Source of the DNA: Verrucomicrobiota bacterium | GTDB taxonomy: Bacteria > Verrucomicrobiota > Kiritimatiellia > RFP12 > UBA1067 | NCBI GenBank assembly: GCA_016280825.1 | Contig: JAEEHL010000004.1 | Span: 1-34,309 of the forward strand | DNA length: 34,309 nt | Direction: 5' to 3' | Shown here: positions 10,397 through 27,082 of the stretch, piece by piece | Numbering within the stretch: position 1 is the stretch's first letter | Layout of the letters: every line of letters starts with the position of its first letter | Notes under the pieces: generated by a model | Databases searched by the model: none | What the model was told of the DNA's origin: nothing | The model's input: only the letters and a program-made list of their open reading frames with translations | Position numbers and translations under genes: made by a program

Positions 10397-10425
10397 ATTA
10401 TACCAAAAAAGCGCGGACAAATCAA
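10397..10425 (-). promoter_or_regulatory. Sigma70-like promoter (TTGATT-17-TATAAT) for lipoprotein-kdsA-lpt operon
   Basis: Reverse strand reads TTGATT TGTCCGCGCTTTTTTGG TATAAT between the hybrid kinase stop and the lipoprotein start; exact 17-nt spacer. Confidence 0.65.
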
Positions 10426-12551
10426 ACTTGCAGCAAGTTGCGACGCAATTCCTCAAGCGTGTAGGGCTTGGCGAGGAATCTGTCGTACTTGACATCTGCG
10501 AAAATCTTCCTGACGTGCTCTTCGGCGCTCCCGCTGGAGACGACAATCGGCACCCCCGGCGCAGACGCGCGGAGACTCGCGGCAAGGCGCACCGTGTCCA
10601 TTCCGCCGAGGTTGACGTCAAGGAGTATGGCCCTGAGGGCGCTTGCGCGGCGGCGCGCCACGGCAAGGGCGGCGGAGGCGCAGTCCGCAGTGTGCGCTGA
10701 AAGCCCCATCAGTTTCAGGAGCATCGAGGTGGAACGCAGCACCAGTCGGTCGTCGTCAACCACGAGAACCTCCCCTCCGGACGCGCGGGCGGCTGCGTTT
10801 TCAGACTTCTGGCTCTCCACATCCGCGACGGCGGCGGGCGAGGACGACTCCGGCAGGTAGATCTCGAAGCGAGTGCCCTTGTTCACTACGCTCTTCACCC
10901 TTATTCCGCCTCCGTGCGCCTCGACGATCGTCCGGACTATGGCAAGCCCAAGCCCCCTCCCAACCGCCTTCGACGACACAAATGGGTCGAAGAGCCGCTT
11001 GACCATCGCCGGCGGTATGCCAGGCCCGTCATCCTCGATCGCGATGAGAATCCCAACGCCTGGCAGAAGCGGGGCCGTCGAGGAGAAGGCGATCGACTCG
11101 CGCGGGGTCATCGAGAACCTCGACACGCTGACGTCGATGTGTCCGGGCCTCCCGGACATCGCCTCCGCGGAGTTCTTTATTATGTTGAACGGCACCTTCC
11201 AGAACTGGTGGAGGTCCACGTCTACCGGCGGAAGGTCAGCATCGCAATGGTAGTTGAGCGCGATGTTGCGCCCCACCGCCCCGTTCGCGAGGAGCTTCAC
11301 GTCGTCCAGCACCAGGACGGGGCTCACCTTCAGAAGAGTCATCCTGCTGTCGCCCGCGAACGTGGAAAGCTCGCTCATCATCGAGGAACCGCGCCTCACC
11401 GCGTCGCGTATCGTGTCGAGCGCGTTCTTAGAGTCGCCGGAAGGGTCTGCCTCGGCCGACTCCGCCGCCGAAAGGACGACGGAGAGGACGTTGTTCATGT
11501 CGTGCGATATGCCTGCAGCGAGAAGCGTAAGCGACTCGCGCTTCCGGGAGTCCTGCGCGCGCTCCTCGGCGGCAAGGCGCAGGCGGTGCTCCTCGAACTC
11601 GACCGTGACGTCCCTGGCTATCGCGAGGACGAAGTGCTCATCCATCTTCGTAAGCCGCACCTCGAAGTGCCTGTTCCTCTGCCCCCCGCTGCCCGTCGCC
11701 ACCACAATCCTCAGACGGCCGATTTCGCCTGTCGACGCCGTCTTCTCGAACTCTGCATTGAACCGCTCCACCTGGGCCGTGCCGAACACGCTCTCGCTCG
11801 GTCCCTCTCCGACGGCAAGCCCGGGCATTGGGTCCACGCCCTCGGCCTCCTTCGATATCGAGACAAGCTTCCCGGCGCGGTCGAAGATCGCAAGCGAGTC
11901 GGGAAGGCCGCGAATGAGCGCGTGGTGGCGCGCCTCCATCTGCGCGACGGCAAGGGATCGCCGGGATATCGTCTCGAGCATCCTGTTCACCGAGACGGCA
12001 AGCTGGGCGAATTCGTCCTTGCCCTTCCACTCGAGGCGCGGGCAGTCTGTGTCGGCGTTGTGCTCGCCTATCTCGGCCAGGGCCTTCGTCATCCTGGTAA
12101 GGGGATTGAGGAGAACCTTCCCCTGGCATAGGAAGGCGATGAGCACGAAGACCATGCCGCCGATGGCGATGAACATCACGAGCCTCTCGAACGCCATCTT
12201 CGCAGCGCGGGCGGGAATCGTCTTTGGCGCATGCCTGCGGTCGATCAGCCAGTGCCCTCCGGAATAGAACTCGAGCGCGCCGTTCACCATCGGCACGATG
12301 GAAAACTCGAACGGCTCCTGGCGTTCCGCGATCCGCACCACCGGCGTATGGCTTTCCTCCGAGTCGTGAATCAGCCTTACGAGAACTATGCGGCCGCCGA
12401 TGTAAAAGATGACAAGCGCCGCAATGAGCAGGAACGCGGTAAAAAGCGAATACCTCGTCCGTATCGAACTCAACGACTGGGAAAGGGCGGCGCGCCATCC
12501 GCCGCGCCTGCCGTCCGCCGTGTCTCCGCCCCCTAGAATGCTAGTTTCCAT
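10422..12551 (-). CDS. Hybrid sensor histidine kinase (2 TM, HAMP, PAS-like, HisKA, HATPase, C-terminal receiver)
   Basis: H-box LLAAGISHDMNNVLSVVL; N-box FNIIKNSAEAM; DDGPGIPPAMVKRLFDPFVSSK; GRGLGLAIVRTIVEAHGGGI; receiver VLVVDDDR...ILLDVNLGG...AKPYTLEEL. Confidence 0.9.
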   Translation of the reverse strand: METSILGGGDTADGRRGGWRAALSQSLSSIRTRYSLFTAFLLIAALVIFYIGGRIVLVRLIHDSEESHTPVVRIAERQEPFEFSIVPMVNGALEFYSGGHWLIDRRHAPKTIPARAAKMAFERLVMFIAIGGMVFVLIAFLCQGKVLLNPLTRMTKALAEIGEHNADTDCPRLEWKGKDEFAQLAVSVNRMLETISRRSLAVAQMEARHHALIRGLPDSLAIFDRAGKLVSISKEAEGVDPMPGLAVGEGPSESVFGTAQVERFNAEFEKTASTGEIGRLRIVVATGSGGQRNRHFEVRLTKMDEHFVLAIARDVTVEFEEHRLRLAAEERAQDSRKRESLTLLAAGISHDMNNVLSVVLSAAESAEADPSGDSKNALDTIRDAVRRGSSMMSELSTFAGDSRMTLLKVSPVLVLDDVKLLANGAVGRNIALNYHCDADLPPVDVDLHQFWKVPFNIIKNSAEAMSGRPGHIDVSVSRFSMTPRESIAFSSTAPLLPGVGILIAIEDDGPGIPPAMVKRLFDPFVSSKAVGRGLGLAIVRTIVEAHGGGIRVKSVVNKGTRFEIYLPESSSPAAVADVESQKSENAAARASGGEVLVVDDDRLVLRSTSMLLKLMGLSAHTADCASAALAVARRRASALRAILLDVNLGGMDTVRLAASLRASAPGVPIVVSSGSAEEHVRKIFADVKYDRFLAKPYTLEELRRNLLQV

Positions 12552-12867
12552 CCTCTCCCCTTCCAACCTTTAAAAGAAGCGCCGCCAGAAGCACGGCCGC
12601 TAGAAAGACGGGCGCCCACACGTCTGAGTGCCGCGCAGGTGCCGCAGGCGCGCTTTCCGCTGTGTGCCCCACGTCCTCCACGAGCTCGCCGCCCCTGGTC
12701 CAGCGCTCGCCTTCCGAGGCTGCAATCGCAAGCTCGCCCTCCCGCTCCCGCTCGGACAGAAGCGAAATCCCCTCCATGCGCCGGGCCTCCCGCCTGCGCC
12801 TGAGCTCGCCCTGTTGCTCCCGTTTCTGGGCCTCCGCCATCGACGGCGAGATGGTGGGGTCAAACAC
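12541..12867 (-). CDS. Small hypothetical protein: charged coiled-coil region plus C-terminal transmembrane helix
   Basis: Likely GTG start (12867) overlapping the 3' end of the PilX-like gene; RBS-like GGCGGAG; C-term VWAPVFLAAVLLAALLLKVGRGEDGN. Confidence 0.6.
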   Translation of the reverse strand: MFDPTISPSMAEAQKREQQGELRRRREARRMEGISLLSEREREGELAIAASEGERWTRGGELVEDVGHTAESAPAAPARHSDVWAPVFLAAVLLAALLLKVGRGEDGN

Positions 12868-16058: not shown

Positions 16059-16858
16059 GCCCCCTCCTTTCCGCCCTCGCCGCTCTCCGCGGCAACAAGG
16101 GTCTCCACGGCCTTTTCGATCTTCGACGGCTCCGCGAGGAAGAACCTCGCCTTCAGCCCGAGCGCGGCGGTTACCGCCCTGTGCAGTAGCGAGTCGTTCG
16201 GCGAAAGGTGGGCGACAAGCGCGACGTCGCCGATGCGCGCAAACGCCACCACGCCGCGGAGGGCCATGAGTTTCGCGGGGAGGCGCGGCGCCGCAAGGAG
16301 AAGCGGGGCGAAGGCGTCCACCGGCACCGGCGGTTCGCCATACTCGTCCGAAAGCCTCGCAAGCGCAGCCTCGCATGCCTCGGAGGAATCCTTCTCCATT
16401 AAATAGAGCGCGGAAACGAGGCCCTGCTCGCCCGGCTGGAGCGCCCTGATGCGCCCGGCAAGGTCATTTTCGCCGAGCTTCTCGGCAAGGGCGGCCTCGC
16501 TCTCCACGGCGGAGGCGAATTCGTCGGCCCGCGCGGGCGGCGCCTCCTCCGCCTTCAGCTCCGGCATCGGCGCGATGCTGGCGCGGACCTTGAGGGCCAT
16601 GGCCTGCGCCTCGTGCGAACCGCACTCCTCGAGGCGCGGCAGAAGCGCCTCCGCCGACTTGAGGTCACCCTCCTTCACGAGCACGCGCGCAAGCTCGGAA
16701 AGAGCAGCCTCGGCCTTCAGCGTCTCGCCCATCTGCGGATACGCGACGGCAAGGAACTCCAGGGTGGTGCGGTCGTCCGGCATCACCTTGAGCATTTTCT
16801 CGAAATACTCCACGCCTTCCTTCAGGCGCGCGTCGAATTTCTGCATCTCTTCAGCCAT
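16055..16858 (-). CDS. TPR-like helical repeat protein in pilus operon
   Basis: MAEEMQKFDARLKEGVEYFEKMLKVMPDDRTTLEFLAVAYPQMGETLKAEAALSELARVLVKEGDLKSAEALLPRL: TPR-type spacing. Confidence 0.65.
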   Translation of the reverse strand: MAEEMQKFDARLKEGVEYFEKMLKVMPDDRTTLEFLAVAYPQMGETLKAEAALSELARVLVKEGDLKSAEALLPRLEECGSHEAQAMALKVRASIAPMPELKAEEAPPARADEFASAVESEAALAEKLGENDLAGRIRALQPGEQGLVSALYLMEKDSSEACEAALARLSDEYGEPPVPVDAFAPLLLAAPRLPAKLMALRGVVAFARIGDVALVAHLSPNDSLLHRAVTAALGLKARFFLAEPSKIEKAVETLVAAESGEGGKEGA

Positions 16859-17225
16859 TTGCAAGCTTGTCCCATGAGAATCTTGGCGGCGCCTTCTCGC
16901 GCCACTCCTTGAGCGAAATCATCTCCCCGGCCCTCTCATTGGCGGAAAGGTACGCCTCGCGCGCGTATTCGCGCTTCTCCTTCATCTCCGCGAGAAGCGA
17001 GCGTATCTCCATCGCCGCGTCGTAGCAGATGTCCAGGACTTCCTTCTGCGTCTCGGCATCGCAGCCCATCCTCAGGAGCTCGATCGACGAGAGAAGAACC
17101 GTCGCCGGCTGCCCGAACGCATGGCAGAAGCCGGCGAGCGAGTCCATCACCGTCCTCGACCGCTCCGCCTGCAGCTCCGCGAGCGCAAGCCTGCGCAGAA
17201 GTTCGTCTCTCTCGTCCTTTTCCAT
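16851..17225 (-). CDS. Stand-alone histidine-kinase DHp-like protein, no ATPase domain
   Basis: SLAGFCHAFGQPATVLLSSIELLRMG resembles a HisKA H-box (x-x-H-[ED/AF]-x-x-x-P-L/A-T-V-L); 124 aa only. Confidence 0.6.
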   Translation of the reverse strand: MEKDERDELLRRLALAELQAERSRTVMDSLAGFCHAFGQPATVLLSSIELLRMGCDAETQKEVLDICYDAAMEIRSLLAEMKEKREYAREAYLSANERAGEMISLKEWREKAPPRFSWDKLANG

Positions 17226-17253
17226 CTCCTTGACTGCCTTTCCTCCTCTCCCG

Positions 17254-18324
17254 TCAGTGGGCAAGGCCGCCCATGTTGAATATCGGCAGGAACATCGCCA
17301 CGACGATCGTGCCTATTATGCTGCCGAGAAACACCATCATGAAGGGCTCCATGAGCGCCGTCAGCGTGGAAAGCAGCGTCTCCACCTCCTCGTCGTACGT
17401 GTCGGCGACGGAATCGAGCATCTCCTCGAGCCTGCCGGCCTTCTCGCCCGCCGCGATCATTCGTATCATCATGATCGGCATGTAGGGCTTGCCCGTGAGG
17501 GCGGTGTTGAGCTGGTTGCCCTGCTCCACCTCCTTGCGGGCGAGCATCACCGACTTCTCCAGGACGCGGTTGCCCATCGAACCGGCGACGACCTCAAGCG
17601 ACTTCAAAATCGGCACGCCGCTCCCCATCATCTGCGCCAGAAGCCGCGCGAAGCGGGCGACGGCCGCCTTGTGGCCGAGGTTGCCGAAGACGGGGAGCTT
17701 CAACTTGAACTCGTCGAACCTGTACCTCCCGGACTTCGTGGACTTCCACTTCGTGAAAAGCGTCACGAACGCGGCAATGCCGCCAAGTATGTACATCCAG
17801 TTGCGCTTCACGCCGTCGGAAAGGTCCACCAGCGCCTGCGTAAGGCCGGGGAGGGGCTTCCCCGAGCCGGAGAACATCTCCGCGAAGACGGGCACGACGA
17901 ACTGGATGAGGCCCGCGCAGAGGAGGACCGATATGGAGATGACCACGGTCGGGTAGGTCATCGCGCTCTTCACCTTGCGCTTCAGGCGCGAGGAGCTTGC
18001 GAGAATGCCGGCAAGACGCTTCAAGATCGCCGCGAACTGACCGGACTGCTCGCCTGCGACGGCCATGTTCACGTACATCTCGTCGAAGATCTTTGGATAG
18101 CGCGAAAGCCCCTTCGAAATCGGGTCGCCGCCCTCGATCGTGTCGAGAAGGTCCTTCAGCACCTTCTTGAACTCGGGGTTCTCGGCCTGCTCCTCCAGGG
18201 TCTGCATCGTCGTCAATATCGACATCCCGGCGCCGGTCATCGACGCGAGCTGCTTCGTGAACGGAACGAGATCGCGGTTCACGATCCGCTTGACACCATG
18301 CACTCTGACTTTCCTCTCTGCCAT
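17254..18324 (-). CDS. pilC: Type IV pilus/type II secretion inner membrane platform protein
   Basis: GspF-family: FTKQLASMTGAGMSILTTMQTLEEQ, QMMGSGVPILKSLEVVAGSMGN, MPIMMIRMIAAGEKAGRLEEML. Confidence 0.93.
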   Translation of the reverse strand: MAERKVRVHGVKRIVNRDLVPFTKQLASMTGAGMSILTTMQTLEEQAENPEFKKVLKDLLDTIEGGDPISKGLSRYPKIFDEMYVNMAVAGEQSGQFAAILKRLAGILASSSRLKRKVKSAMTYPTVVISISVLLCAGLIQFVVPVFAEMFSGSGKPLPGLTQALVDLSDGVKRNWMYILGGIAAFVTLFTKWKSTKSGRYRFDEFKLKLPVFGNLGHKAAVARFARLLAQMMGSGVPILKSLEVVAGSMGNRVLEKSVMLARKEVEQGNQLNTALTGKPYMPIMMIRMIAAGEKAGRLEEMLDSVADTYDEEVETLLSTLTALMEPFMMVFLGSIIGTIVVAMFLPIFNMGGLAH

Positions 18325-18340: not shown

Positions 18341-19990
18341 TCAGTCTCCGCCCGTCACCGCGAACGCGGCCTCAAGCGACGTTAGTCCAGCCCGCACCTT
18401 TATCATGCCGGCCTCCTTCAAGGTCACCATCCCCTCTTCAAGCGCGACCTTCCGCAGAAGGTCGGCGTTGCCGCCCTTCTCGATTATGGAGCGTATCTTC
18501 GGCGAGACCGGCAGCACCTCCATCATCGCCCCGCGCCCCTTGTATCCCGTGTTGTGGCACTTTGCGCACCCCCTTGGCCCGAATATCTCGACTCCCTCGA
18601 ACGGCGCGGGGTCGACCTTGTTGGCCGCAAGAAGCTCAAGGTCGGGCTTCACGCTCTGGCGGCAGTTCGGGCAGAGCCGCCTGAAAAGGCGCTGCGCCTG
18701 CGCGAGTATGAGGGAGCTGGCGAGGAGGAACGGCGGTATCTGCATGTCTATGAGGCGCGGGATGACGCCGCATGCGTCGTTCGTGTGCAGCGTGGAAAGG
18801 ACGAGGTGGCCGGTAAGGGCGGCCTTTACCGCGATGTCCGCAGTCTCGTTGTCGCGGATCTCGCCGACGAGCACGATGTCCGGGTCCTGTCGGAGGACGG
18901 ACCTCAGGATGCCCGCGAACGTAAGCCCCTGTGCCACGTTCACATGGCACTGGTTGATGCCCGGCAGTTCGTATTCAACTGGGTCTTCGGCCGTGACGAT
19001 GTTGACGTCGCTCTTGTTGAGGTCCTGAAGGCACGAGTAGAGGGTAGTCGTCTTGCCCGAGCCGGTGGGGCCGGTAACGAGGATGATGCCGTGCGGCTGA
19101 TCGATCGCGAACTTCATCGCCTTGTAGGCGTAGTCGTCGAGCCCGAGCGACGAAAGCCCGGGGGCGAGGTTCGCCTTGTCGAGGATTCGCATTACAACCT
19201 TCTCGCCGTGCACCGTGGGGAGGATGGAGACGCGAACGTCGACCTCCTTCTGGAGGGCGCGGATCTTGAAGCGCCCGTCCTGCGGGCGACGACGCTCGGC
19301 GATGTCGAGGTTCGACATGATCTTTATGCGCGAAACGACGGCGCTATGCAGGGCCTTTGGCGGCGCTGGGCGGTCGACGAGCGCGCCGTCGATGCGATAG
19401 CGGAGGCGCGAGGTCTTCTCGAGCGCCTCAAAATGGATGTCGGAGGCCTTCGTCTTCAACGCCTCCATCATCATGGAGTTCACCATGCGGATGACCGGAG
19501 CCTCGCCGGCCGCGTCCAAGGAGGCGTCTATCTCGTCCGCCTTGCCGGTGTCGACGCTTGCAAACTCAATGTCGGCCTCCTGGCCTTTCATGATGTTCTC
19601 CATCGCAAGCGCGGGGTTCGACGCGTCCTCCCTCGACTTCACGCGGTTTAGCGCCTCGACTACATCCATCTCGGGGGCCACCGCCCCCCACATCCCGGCT
19701 CCGCACGCACGCGAGACAGCCTCCCTCGCAGGAAGGTCGAACGGATCTGCAAAAAGGACGAGCATACGCCCTGCGATCCGCGCCATCGGCAGTGCCTTCG
19801 CCTTCACCCAGAAGTCGGCGCCCTTGCCGCAAAGGAGGGAAATGTCGGGAAGAAATCCGGGCGGGACGGCAAGCGGAGGCATGGAGAAGTGCTCAGCCGC
19901 CGCGAGCGTCTGCTTTTCAGGGTCGGCAATCGCCTTGATTTCCGCAGCGGAAAGCCAACTCTTCTTTTTCTTTATCCCGATTATTGCCAT
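18341..19990 (-). CDS. pilB: Type IV pilus assembly/type II secretion ATPase (PilB/GspE)
   Basis: Walker A VTGPTGSGKTTTLYSCL, AEDPVEYELPGINQCHVN, ILRQDPDIVLVGEIRDNETADIAVKAALTGHLVLSTLHTNDA, zinc motif CPNC...CAKC. Confidence 0.95.
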   Translation of the reverse strand: MAIIGIKKKKSWLSAAEIKAIADPEKQTLAAAEHFSMPPLAVPPGFLPDISLLCGKGADFWVKAKALPMARIAGRMLVLFADPFDLPAREAVSRACGAGMWGAVAPEMDVVEALNRVKSREDASNPALAMENIMKGQEADIEFASVDTGKADEIDASLDAAGEAPVIRMVNSMMMEALKTKASDIHFEALEKTSRLRYRIDGALVDRPAPPKALHSAVVSRIKIMSNLDIAERRRPQDGRFKIRALQKEVDVRVSILPTVHGEKVVMRILDKANLAPGLSSLGLDDYAYKAMKFAIDQPHGIILVTGPTGSGKTTTLYSCLQDLNKSDVNIVTAEDPVEYELPGINQCHVNVAQGLTFAGILRSVLRQDPDIVLVGEIRDNETADIAVKAALTGHLVLSTLHTNDACGVIPRLIDMQIPPFLLASSLILAQAQRLFRRLCPNCRQSVKPDLELLAANKVDPAPFEGVEIFGPRGCAKCHNTGYKGRGAMMEVLPVSPKIRSIIEKGGNADLLRKVALEEGMVTLKEAGMIKVRAGLTSLEAAFAVTGGD

Positions 19991-20015: not shown

Positions 20016-20031
20016 AGCAAATAGTGTGCCA
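20016..20031 (-). promoter_or_regulatory. Sigma54 (-24/-12) promoter of pilB operon
   Basis: Reverse strand TTTTGGCACACTATTTGCT: TGGCAC-N5-TTGCT; 10 nt between GG and GC; 25 bp upstream of the pilB ATG. Confidence 0.85.
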
Positions 20032-20093: not shown

Positions 20094-20118
20094 ATTCTGC
20101 AAAAAATCTTTTGCAAAA
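20094..20118 (-). promoter_or_regulatory. Putative upstream activator site (UAS), pilB copy
   Basis: Reverse strand TTTTGCAAAAGATTTTTTGCAGAAT; 20/25 identical to the copy upstream of the pilin promoter and 63 bp from its sigma54 element. Confidence 0.55.
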
Positions 20119-23939: not shown

Positions 23940-24329
23940 TTATGGATTCTCGCCGCCACCGCCACCGCCGCCGGCCGACTTCTCGGAGCCGTCGTCGTTG
24001 TGCGTACCGCACGTGACGACAATTGCGCCGTTGTCGATGGTGATATCGTAGTCATCACCGCTCTTGGGGCACTTCGGCATCGTCTTCAGAAGGCCAGTGC
24101 CATCCGAGTTGACGAGATCCGACTCGACGGGAGCCGTTGTGCCCGGGTGCTTGGTGAGCCACGTCTCGGCAGCCGTCTTGATGGTGGCCATGTTGCCCAC
24201 GCAGGCGTTGCCTTGCGATTCATTGCGGTATGCAATGAAGTTCGGGATCGCAATTGCGGCCAATATGGCGATGATTGCGACCACGATCATGATTTCAACA
24301 AGCGTGAAACCTTTATTGAACTTTCTCAT
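23940..24329 (-). CDS. Major type IV pilin / type II pseudopilin
   Basis: MRKFNKG^FTLVEIMIVVAIIAILAAIAIPNFIAYRNESQGNACVGNMATIKTAAETW; RBS GAAAGGA. Confidence 0.93.
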   Translation of the reverse strand: MRKFNKGFTLVEIMIVVAIIAILAAIAIPNFIAYRNESQGNACVGNMATIKTAAETWLTKHPGTTAPVESDLVNSDGTGLLKTMPKCPKSGDDYDITIDNGAIVVTCGTHNDDGSEKSAGGGGGGGENP

Positions 24330-24389: not shown

Positions 24390-24405
24390 AGCACAAGGCG
24401 TGCCA
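24390..24405 (-). promoter_or_regulatory. Sigma54 (-24/-12) promoter of pilin gene
   Basis: Reverse strand TTTTGGCACGCCTTGTGCT: TGGCAC-N5-GTGCT, GG-N10-GC spacing exact. Confidence 0.8.
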
Positions 24406-24458: not shown

Positions 24459-24490
24459 TTTTGCAAATTTGCAAAAAGGCATTTGCAAAA
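24459..24490 (-). promoter_or_regulatory. Putative UAS, pilin copy, containing an 18-bp perfect palindrome TTTTGCAAATTTGCAAAA plus a third half site
   Basis: Palindrome at 24459-24476; third TTTGCAAAA at 24482-24490; minus-strand 24490-24466 TTTTGCAAATGCCTTTTTGCAAATT matches the pilB copy. Confidence 0.55.
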
Positions 24491-24498
24491 TCAAGAAT

Positions 24499-25854
24499 CT
24501 ACTCATCCGAAAGCTTCCTATAAAGAGTGGAAAGGTTTACCTTCAGCGTCTCGGCGGCTTTTTCCTTGTCGCCGCCGGTGGCATCGAGTATCTGGCCTAT
24601 GTATTCCTTTTCCTTCCTGCGGAGGAAGCTCTTCAGGGAGGAGTTCCCGTCTGCTGCGGACACCGGGCCTTCGGCGTCCTTCGAGACCTTGAAGTCCTTT
24701 ATCCGCGGCGGCAGGTCGTCCACGGCTATCTCGGGGCCGCGGCAGAACGTAAGCGCGTGCTTGACGGCGTTTTCGAGCTCGCGCACGTTCCCGGGCCAGT
24801 TGTAGGCCACAAGCGCTTTCGCCGCCGCGTCGGAAATCTCCGGAGGCTTCCTGCCGCCTTCGATCTCGTGCGCCACGAAGTGCCGCGCCAAGGGCAGTAT
24901 GTCCTCAGGCCTGCTGCGCAGTGGCGGAATGTCTATCGTGATGACGGCGAAGCGGTAGAAGAGGTCGCTCCTGAACTTGCCCTTTACTACGGCCTCCTCG
25001 AGATTGGCGTTCGACGCGGCGATGACGCGCACGTCGACGGGGATGTCCTTCGTACCGCCGACGCGGCGAATCTCGCGCTCCTGCAGCGCCCTGAGGAGCT
25101 TGCCCTGCAGAAGAAGCGGCATCGACGAAATCTCGTCAAGGAACAATGTCCCCCCGTTCGCGGCCTCGAAAAGCCCCTCCTTGTCGCTTACCGCCCCTGT
25201 GAAGGAGCCCTTCACGTGCCCGAACATCTCGCTTTCAAGGAGGTTCTCCGGTATCGCCGCGCAGTTCACCGCCACCCACGGCCTAGAGGCGCGCGTCGAG
25301 TTCCTGTGGATCGCGCGCGCTACCACCTCCTTTCCCGTGCCCGACTCGCCGTAGATGAGAACCGTCGCGGCGGTGGGCGCCACGCGGGAAATCATCTCGC
25401 AGACGTCGGTCATCGCGGGAGAAGTCGCAATGAGGTTTTCAAAGCGGTACCTGAGCGGAGCCGGCGAGAAGGACGCCGCAACGGATGAGTCCTTCGCAAT
25501 CTTCTCCTCGGCCCGCTTTAGGCACGATACGAGCTCGTCGACCTTGAAGGGCTTCGTGAGATAGTCGAAGACGCCGCTTTTCATGGCCTCGATCGCCGTC
25601 TCGACGCTCGCGTACGCAGTGACGAGTATGACGGGGATGGCCGGGTTGAACGACTTGATCTCGCGGAAGAGCTGCATGCCGTCCATCGGCTGCATCCTGA
25701 GGTCCGTCATCACGACGTCAATGCCGCCATTTTTGACAATTTCAAGCGCCGTCGGACCGTCCGGCGCCGTCTCGACGTCGTAACCATTCGACTTCATGAG
25801 CCCCCGCATCAGGAGAAGGATGCGCGGCTCGTCATCTACGATGAGAATCTTCAT
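24499..25854 (-). CDS. NtrC-family sigma54-dependent response regulator (PilR-like)
   Basis: Receiver ILIVDDEPRILL...VVMTDLRMQPMDG; AAA+ GESGTGKEVVARAIH, GHVKGSFTGAVSDKEGLFEAANGGTLFLDEI; Fis-type HTH at the C-terminus. Confidence 0.93.
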   Translation of the reverse strand: MKILIVDDEPRILLLMRGLMKSNGYDVETAPDGPTALEIVKNGGIDVVMTDLRMQPMDGMQLFREIKSFNPAIPVILVTAYASVETAIEAMKSGVFDYLTKPFKVDELVSCLKRAEEKIAKDSSVAASFSPAPLRYRFENLIATSPAMTDVCEMISRVAPTAATVLIYGESGTGKEVVARAIHRNSTRASRPWVAVNCAAIPENLLESEMFGHVKGSFTGAVSDKEGLFEAANGGTLFLDEISSMPLLLQGKLLRALQEREIRRVGGTKDIPVDVRVIAASNANLEEAVVKGKFRSDLFYRFAVITIDIPPLRSRPEDILPLARHFVAHEIEGGRKPPEISDAAAKALVAYNWPGNVRELENAVKHALTFCRGPEIAVDDLPPRIKDFKVSKDAEGPVSAADGNSSLKSFLRRKEKEYIGQILDATGGDKEKAAETLKVNLSTLYRKLSDE

Positions 25855-25884: not shown

Positions 25885-25900
25885 TGGCACGGTTTTTGCT
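25885..25900 (+). promoter_or_regulatory. Sigma54 (-24/-12) promoter of pilMNOPQ operon
   Basis: TTTTGGCACGGTTTTTGCT: TGGCAC-N5-TTGCT, exact spacing. Confidence 0.85.
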
Positions 25901-25915
25901 AACAATTTTTTATAA

Positions 25916-27082
25916 ATGGAAATCAAGCTTACAAAGGACAGGAAGTTGACGCTCGGCGGGAAGCGCCGCAAGCGGCGTGGGAAGCTCGACATTACGGGCG
26001 TGGATCTCGTGCCCGTGGAGGGCAAGGGCTGCCCGGCCGTGCGCATTGTAGAGAAGAAAGGCGTCCTCCGCCTGCTCGCCGCCGGCTACGTGCCCGCGCC
26101 CTCCGACCCAGTGCCGGACTCTTGGGAGGCCGCCGCAAAGAGCTGCACCTGGGCGTTCCCGACGCAGTTCCAAAGCCCTGCCGCGGCCCTCGCCGTGTCG
26201 TCGCCCGACGTCTTCGTGGCCCAGACAACCCTATCCGCCCTGAAGTCGGACATCTCGTCGGGCACTCACAACAAGCAGGAATCCGCCGCATCGGCAGGTT
26301 CCAGGAGAATCGGCCTCAGGCGCGAGCCTCGTCCTGCCGCGCAGCAGGCTACGCCGAGCGCGCCATCTGACATCGCCGAGCCAAAGCCAGGCGTCCCCGT
26401 CTCGAACGGCGGAATGCGCTTCGTGATGCGTCCGCTCGACGGCTCCGACGGCTTCATACTCGAGGCGGGCCTCCCCGAATACCAGGCGCTCTGGTATTCG
26501 CGGCTTCTCCCCGAGGGTCGCCGCCCCACGGCCGTCTCGATACAGCCAAGGCAGGCGGCGATTGCGTCCTGCCCCGTGCTACAGAAGGCGTTTTCCGAAG
26601 CGGGGGGGGACGTTCTCGCGCTCTTCGCCGACACTGGCCATTTCAGCATCGCTGGCTACAAGGGCGGCAGCATGGTCCTCCTGCGCGAATGCCGCGTAGG
26701 CGGCGGGATGAGCTCCATTGCGGAAAAACTGAAAAAGGGCCTCGGCCTCGACGACGAGATGCTTTCAAGCGCGCTTGACGACAACCTCATCGACCCGCGC
26801 CCGGTTCTCGACCCGCTCGTGGCGCCGATAATCGACGAGCTTTCCGCGTCGAAGGACTATCTGAGCGGCAAGCTCGGGTGCGAGCCGAAGGCCGTGATCG
26901 TGTCCGGGGTCGACGTGGGCTTTTCCCACTGGAGTTCGTTCTGCGAGGAGCGCATGCGGCTCAAGATGGCGCGTCTCGACGTGTTCGAGGGGTTGCTGGG
27001 CGTCCCCCCGCAATGCGCGGGCGACTTTCTCGTCGCGACTGGCGCTGCGCTTGCGGTAATAGGGGAGGAGGAGGCGTCATGA
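25916..27082 (+). CDS. pilM: PilM/GspL-like type IV pilus assembly protein
   Basis: First gene of a five-gene pilMNOPQ-like cluster; DITGVDLVPVEG... and SIAGYKGGSMVLLRECRVGGGMSSIAEKL, actin-like fold pattern. Start could be TTG at 25946. Confidence 0.7.
   Translation: MEIKLTKDRKLTLGGKRRKRRGKLDITGVDLVPVEGKGCPAVRIVEKKGVLRLLAAGYVPAPSDPVPDSWEAAAKSCTWAFPTQFQSPAAALAVSSPDVFVAQTTLSALKSDISSGTHNKQESAASAGSRRIGLRREPRPAAQQATPSAPSDIAEPKPGVPVSNGGMRFVMRPLDGSDGFILEAGLPEYQALWYSRLLPEGRRPTAVSIQPRQAAIASCPVLQKAFSEAGGDVLALFADTGHFSIAGYKGGSMVLLRECRVGGGMSSIAEKLKKGLGLDDEMLSSALDDNLIDPRPVLDPLVAPIIDELSASKDYLSGKLGCEPKAVIVSGVDVGFSHWSSFCEERMRLKMARLDVFEGLLGVPPQCAGDFLVATGAALAVIGEEEAS

Follow-up and report, generated by a model that had tools for sequence, protein, structure and literature searches.

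A class-wide tandem palindrome upstream of sigma54 pilus promoters in Kiritimatiellota, a putative enhancer for the neighbouring PilR-type activator

The enhancers of NtrC and XylR are tandem inverted repeats located about 100-150 bp upstream of sigma54 transcription starts, with 16-bp repeats in the case of XylR and the sequence TGCACC-N5-GGTGCA in the case of NtrC. The element described here is likewise a tandem of inverted repeats, with the 16-bp length of the XylR repeats and a sequence different from either. In Pseudomonas aeruginosa, the NtrC-family regulator PilR (of the PilS-PilR pair) activates the sigma54 promoter of pilA from an upstream site, and its sites have the form 5'-TGT-N11-AGA with GTCT elements (PMC6058289). 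The present locus is similar in having a PilR-type regulator and a sigma54 pilin promoter with an upstream site, but neither TGT nor GTCT is found in either of its 38-bp elements and, unlike in P. aeruginosa, pilB also carries a copy of the box. In Geobacter sulfurreducens, pilA has an RpoN promoter and directly follows pilR (PMC2725144), a likeness to the present locus that is drawn from the shared pilR-pilA gene order. Among described layouts, the closest is found with Myxococcus xanthus NmpR, an NtrC-like response regulator with targets in an oxygen-utilisation regulon that also acts on pilR, for which two GCGCA-N5-TGCGC inverted repeats lie upstream of sigma54 sites with 14-15 nt between them, or 5 nt at pilR (PMC11841059). 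The corresponding gaps here are 6 or 14 nt, but the arms and the spacer differ (TTYKCA-N4-TGMRAA), and GCGCA-N5-TGCGC is not matched. No description of the box, its layout or its class-wide conservation was found in the open-access literature searched, nor was any relevant paper on pili in Kiritimatiellota. The kind of system, that of PilR/NtrC enhancers, is already known; the putative operator sequence is new.

The window, that is, the whole stretch of 34,309 nucleotides that was analysed, contains the pilus genes and promoter features collected in Table 1. The genome encodes sigma54, and the protein at 24499-25854 is composed of a receiver, an AAA+ sigma54-activating domain with a GSFTGA loop and a Fis-type HTH, its nearest solved relatives being NtrC-family regulators. 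Here and in relatives, this pilR gene adjoins the sigma54 pilin gene. In the window, three genes, for a dehydrogenase, a sugar kinase-like protein and an MFS transporter, separate pilin from pilB.

Table 1 Features of the pilus locus, in window coordinates
Feature	Position	Strand	Remarks
pilB 38-bp element TTCTCCGTTTTGCAAA-agattt-TTTGCAGAATTGAGAA	20125-20088	-	
pilB distal box TTCTCCGTTTTGCAAA	20110..20125	-	centre 87.5 bp from -24 G; held-out matrix 16.5, rank 5/34,294
pilB proximal box TTTGCAGAATTGAGAA	20088..20103	-	centre 65.5 bp from -24 G; 22 bp from distal box; rank 2
pilB sigma54 promoter TGGCACACTATTTGCT	20016..20031	-	exact match to TGGCACN5TTGCW
pilB, pilus extension ATPase	18341..19990	-	Pfam T2SSE 4.6e-132, MshEN
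pilin 38-bp element TTCTTGATTTTGCAAA-tgcctt-TTTGCAAATTTGCAAA	24497-24460	-	
pilin distal box TTCTTGATTTTGCAAA	24482..24497	-	directly past pilR stop codon; rank 3
pilin proximal box TTTGCAAATTTGCAAA	24460..24475	-	perfect palindrome; centre 63.5 bp from -24 G; rank 1
pilin sigma54 promoter TGGCACGCCTTGTGCT	24390..24405	-	one mismatch to consensus
major type IV pilin	23940..24329	-	Pfam N_methyl 1.8e-9
PilR-type response regulator/sigma54 activator	24499..25854	-	Pfam Response_reg, Sigma54_activat, HTH_8
sigma54 promoter TGGCACGGTTTTTGCT of pilM-like gene 25916-27082	25885..25900	+	exact sigma54 match; no box upstream

Palindromic boxes at the sigma54 pil promoters

The earlier note had reported two minus-strand 25-mers, 20118-20094 ahead of pilB and 24490-24466 ahead of pilin, identical at 20 of 25 positions and lying 64 and 62 bp, respectively, upstream of the -24 GG, and all of these values were reproduced. 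The anatomy given to them was not. The spacer had been put at N5, the shared pattern being TTTTGCAAA-N4-TTTTTGCA, and what had been read as a bipartite unit, two TTTGCAAA boxes with 14 bp between their GC centres, forms the interior of a 38-bp element consisting of two 16-bp palindromes, TTYKCA-N4-TGMRAA, placed 22 bp centre to centre, or about two helical turns, at both promoters. The 25-mer owes its bipartite look to the inner arms of the two 16-mers, which match TTTGCAAA fully or almost fully; the pilin promoter has a third TTTGCAAA, at 24460, that had been missed. The unit was recognised from the pilR-pilin intergenic regions of relatives, where 16-bp palindromes fitting TTYKC-N6-GMRAA occur, usually as a pair, and the refined consensus is symmetrical with conserved G/C positions in its arms. 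One 16-mer of the pilB promoter, TTTGCAGAATTGAGAA, recurs unchanged in a pilin promoter of another genome (G032).

When scored with a matrix trained on the relatives' pilin promoters only, the four held-out boxes ranked 1, 2, 3 and 5 among 34,294 window positions. Genome-wide scans used patterns as well as a sequence-only covariance model. The pattern TTTTGCAAA-N4-TTTTTGCA is not spread randomly through the 2.32-Mb genome, its two exact matches being those at the two sigma54 pil promoters; the remaining matches with up to three mismatches are either weak or these two sites again, read from the opposite strand, and the reversed pattern, as a control, gave no match in the 2.32 Mb even at three mismatches. 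The degenerate TTYKC-N6-GMRAA was too loose on this scale, with 72 sites, and fixing the inner A/T left 3 matches to TTYKCA-N4-TGMRAA in the 2.3-Mb genome, two of which are the proximal boxes at the pil promoters. The third (contig C80) falls within a coding frame that lacks a sigma54 site and was attributed to chance, as was TTTTTATAAATGGAAA at 25907, which scores highly and overlaps the pilM start but is not found in the same place in most relatives. The pilM promoter is without a copy of the element, as had been claimed, and the remaining exact sigma54 sites in the genome have no TTTGCA boxes upstream.

Exact sigma54 promoters were also observed at dnaK-, clpB- and lipoprotein-like genes (L043, G000:C100; L038, G000:C15; L044, G000:C181). 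Each of these promoters has an inverted repeat, TGYGACA-N3-TGTCRCW, upstream, and exactly three perfect matches to this repeat occur in the genome, all at these promoters; it may be the enhancer through which a second sigma54 activator controls chaperones. A further exact sigma54 promoter, TGGCACGAATTTTGCT, is located upstream of a P-II (glnB-like) gene (L039, G000:C59).

Conservation across the class and the genes that carry the boxes

The element is conserved at orthologous loci. A box pair lies between pilR and pilin in all 10 members of the genus with pilin directly downstream of pilR, and likewise in G040, a member of another family, and in G004, where a 1.4-kb insertion splits pilR from pilin, the pair remains with pilin at its 22-bp spacing. 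Among 31 further PilR loci, mostly of the class Kiritimatiellota and outside the training set, a box of at least 13 bits follows pilR within 250 bp in 12, against a mean of 0.38 in shuffles, and precedes it within 200 bp in 14, against a mean of 0.4. Many of these distant loci have no box above the threshold, in part because pilin is not downstream of pilR there. A blind search of 346 class genomes with a sequence-only model of the 38-bp element returned 13 full-length matches outside the training set at E <= 0.05 per genome, a threshold at which some chance matches are expected across this many genomes. All but one of the 13 are upstream of a correctly oriented sigma54 site, with exact sigma54 sites expected by chance at about 0.012 per 350 bp of one strand, and 9 of these 12 directly precede a type IV pilin gene; one of the 12 (G223) is at a contig end. 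In G283 (C171; L262 1447-1546), a box pair at 30 bp and an exact sigma54 site are found upstream of an ArdC-like antirestriction gene, which may be due to chance, and in G239 (C131; L265 2002-2036) two near-perfect boxes 19 bp apart follow closely on pilC, and no sigma54 site was found near the pair. Overall, the box is conserved across the class, in lineages from rumen to sediment.

The box centres are 22 bp apart in the six elements of the model (both elements of the window, G077, G004, L123 and G040). Most other pairs are spaced by 21-24 bp, those of the G029 group by 19 bp and those of the G011 group by 30 bp, all values lying near two or three helical turns. The distance from the centre of the proximal box to the -24 G is usually 50-140 bp, with outliers up to 330 bp. 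Such a tolerance of distance is a trait of enhancers and not of ordinary operators. A correctly oriented -24/-12 promoter downstream, with inverted repeats, usually paired, at variable distance upstream, is the arrangement by which sigma54 enhancers are recognised, and the elements described here show it.

The pair is at pilin in nearly all cases. It is also present at pilB in this genome and in G011, G032 and G075 (21 bp); G004 has one strong and one weak box at pilB, and G013 has one box. In eight members of the genus, pilB has a sigma54 promoter but no box was found within 330 bp; a divergent gene precedes pilB in these eight, and this gene often has a sigma54-like site of its own. In the closest relative, G077, pilB directly follows pilin, with sigma54 present and no pair at pilB. 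Literal TTTGCA boxes are almost absent upstream of pilB in genus members, which would have suggested that the element is not conserved, the real unit being visible only from the pilin promoters. At the pilB loci L013, L014, L016 and similar ones, the sigma54-like promoters of pilB and of the divergent gene were observed to stand nearly back to back, e.g. tagcacataccatgcca...tggcacggtatgtgct, an arrangement that could cause mutual exclusion of the two promoters.

Sensor genes and pilM relatives also carry the pair. In G231, it lies between the sigma54 promoters of a pilM relative (the name pilM is given from position and between-genome similarity, there being no Pfam match) and of a PAS-HisKA gene, and in L126 it lies ahead of a PAS gene similar to that of G231. 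The pilB cluster of the window contains a HisKA-like gene (16851-17264) and a hybrid kinase gene (10422-12566). The former encodes a short, HisKA-only protein whose G231 relative, with two PAS domains, has a box pair ahead of its own gene; this protein is a candidate PilS partner.

Alternative readings and the putative PilR enhancer

Instead of the two 16-mers, the unit could be taken to be a single, NtrC-like palindrome at the centre of the element, TGCAAA-N6-TTTGCA, or the two TTTGCAAA boxes. TGCAAA-N6-TTTGCA is found in both elements of the window and, with each inner arm palindromic in its own right, the sequence of one genome allows both readings. The single palindrome requires the 22-bp spacing, however, and it was rejected because spacing varies between relatives: at 19, 21, 23, 24 and 30 bp it is lost, as is the 25-mer, and both 16-bp palindromes are kept. 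Single 16-mers also occur alone in relatives. The variable spacing largely refutes this unit, which we consider very improbable. A coincidence of A/T-rich sequence, or a structural feature such as bent or IHF-like DNA in a GC-rich genome, has next to no probability. The regions are A/T-rich relative to the 63% GC of the window, but shuffles of these same regions gave boxes at only about 0.4 loci where 12 and 14 were observed, conservation extends to G/C positions of the motif, and two of the 3 pattern matches in 2.3 Mb are at pil promoters. This explanation is refuted by the conservation data.

The two 16-mers might instead be enhancers for a different sigma54 activator, or sites for another DNA-binding protein, rather than for the adjacent PilR. 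The genome encodes other sigma54 activators, and in several genomes pilin and its boxes do not adjoin pilR within the stretch examined. We nevertheless regard a different binder as unlikely, as enrichment of the box is seen class-wide on either side of pilR, the HTH of PilR is nearly invariant where the box occurs, and any other factor would have to track pilR as the box does.

The reading that we prefer, at a probability of about 0.88, is that the paired palindromes form a tandem enhancer for the neighbouring PilR-type activator, predicted to drive the sigma54 promoters of pilin and pilB. The earlier note had mis-measured the element and had, it appears, correctly guessed its role: a putative enhancer for the local NtrC-type regulator at sigma54 pilus promoters is strongly supported by conservation, by sigma54 linkage and by the absence of the element elsewhere, and the element is real and looks functional. 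PilR is very probably the protein that binds the predicted sites and switches on the pilus genes; we infer its binding, cooperativity and activation from the linkage to pilR, the nearly invariant HTH and the mechanism of the NtrC family. Each 16-bp palindrome has the length expected of a site for a single dimer of PilR's Fis-type HTH, and the paired palindromes, two helical turns apart, would lie on almost the same side of the helix. Phosphorylated PilR would occupy the pair, leading to assembly of the AAA+ ring, which would loop to RNA polymerase-sigma54 at the -24/-12 element about 65 bp downstream and open the promoters of pilin and pilB. Under this proposal, since both promoters would be opened by PilR, the pilus subunit and its motor would be made together.

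In environmental families, a box is located about 10-100 bp before the pilR start, which suggests autoregulation. More tentatively, and with some doubt on our part, the box may be a Kiritimatiellota-specific PilR operator that serves both as the sigma54 enhancer of pilin and pilB and, in environmental families, as a negative autoregulatory site upstream of pilR, giving a class-wide feedback circuit with a recognition sequence unlike characterised PilR sites.

So read, the enhancer moves with the pilin gene and, in rearranged clusters, is found again at pilB, pilM or a sensor gene. The regulon of PilR would thereby be readable from metagenome-assembled genomes alone, and the box provides a concrete candidate pilus-regulator site for a class with very few cultured members.
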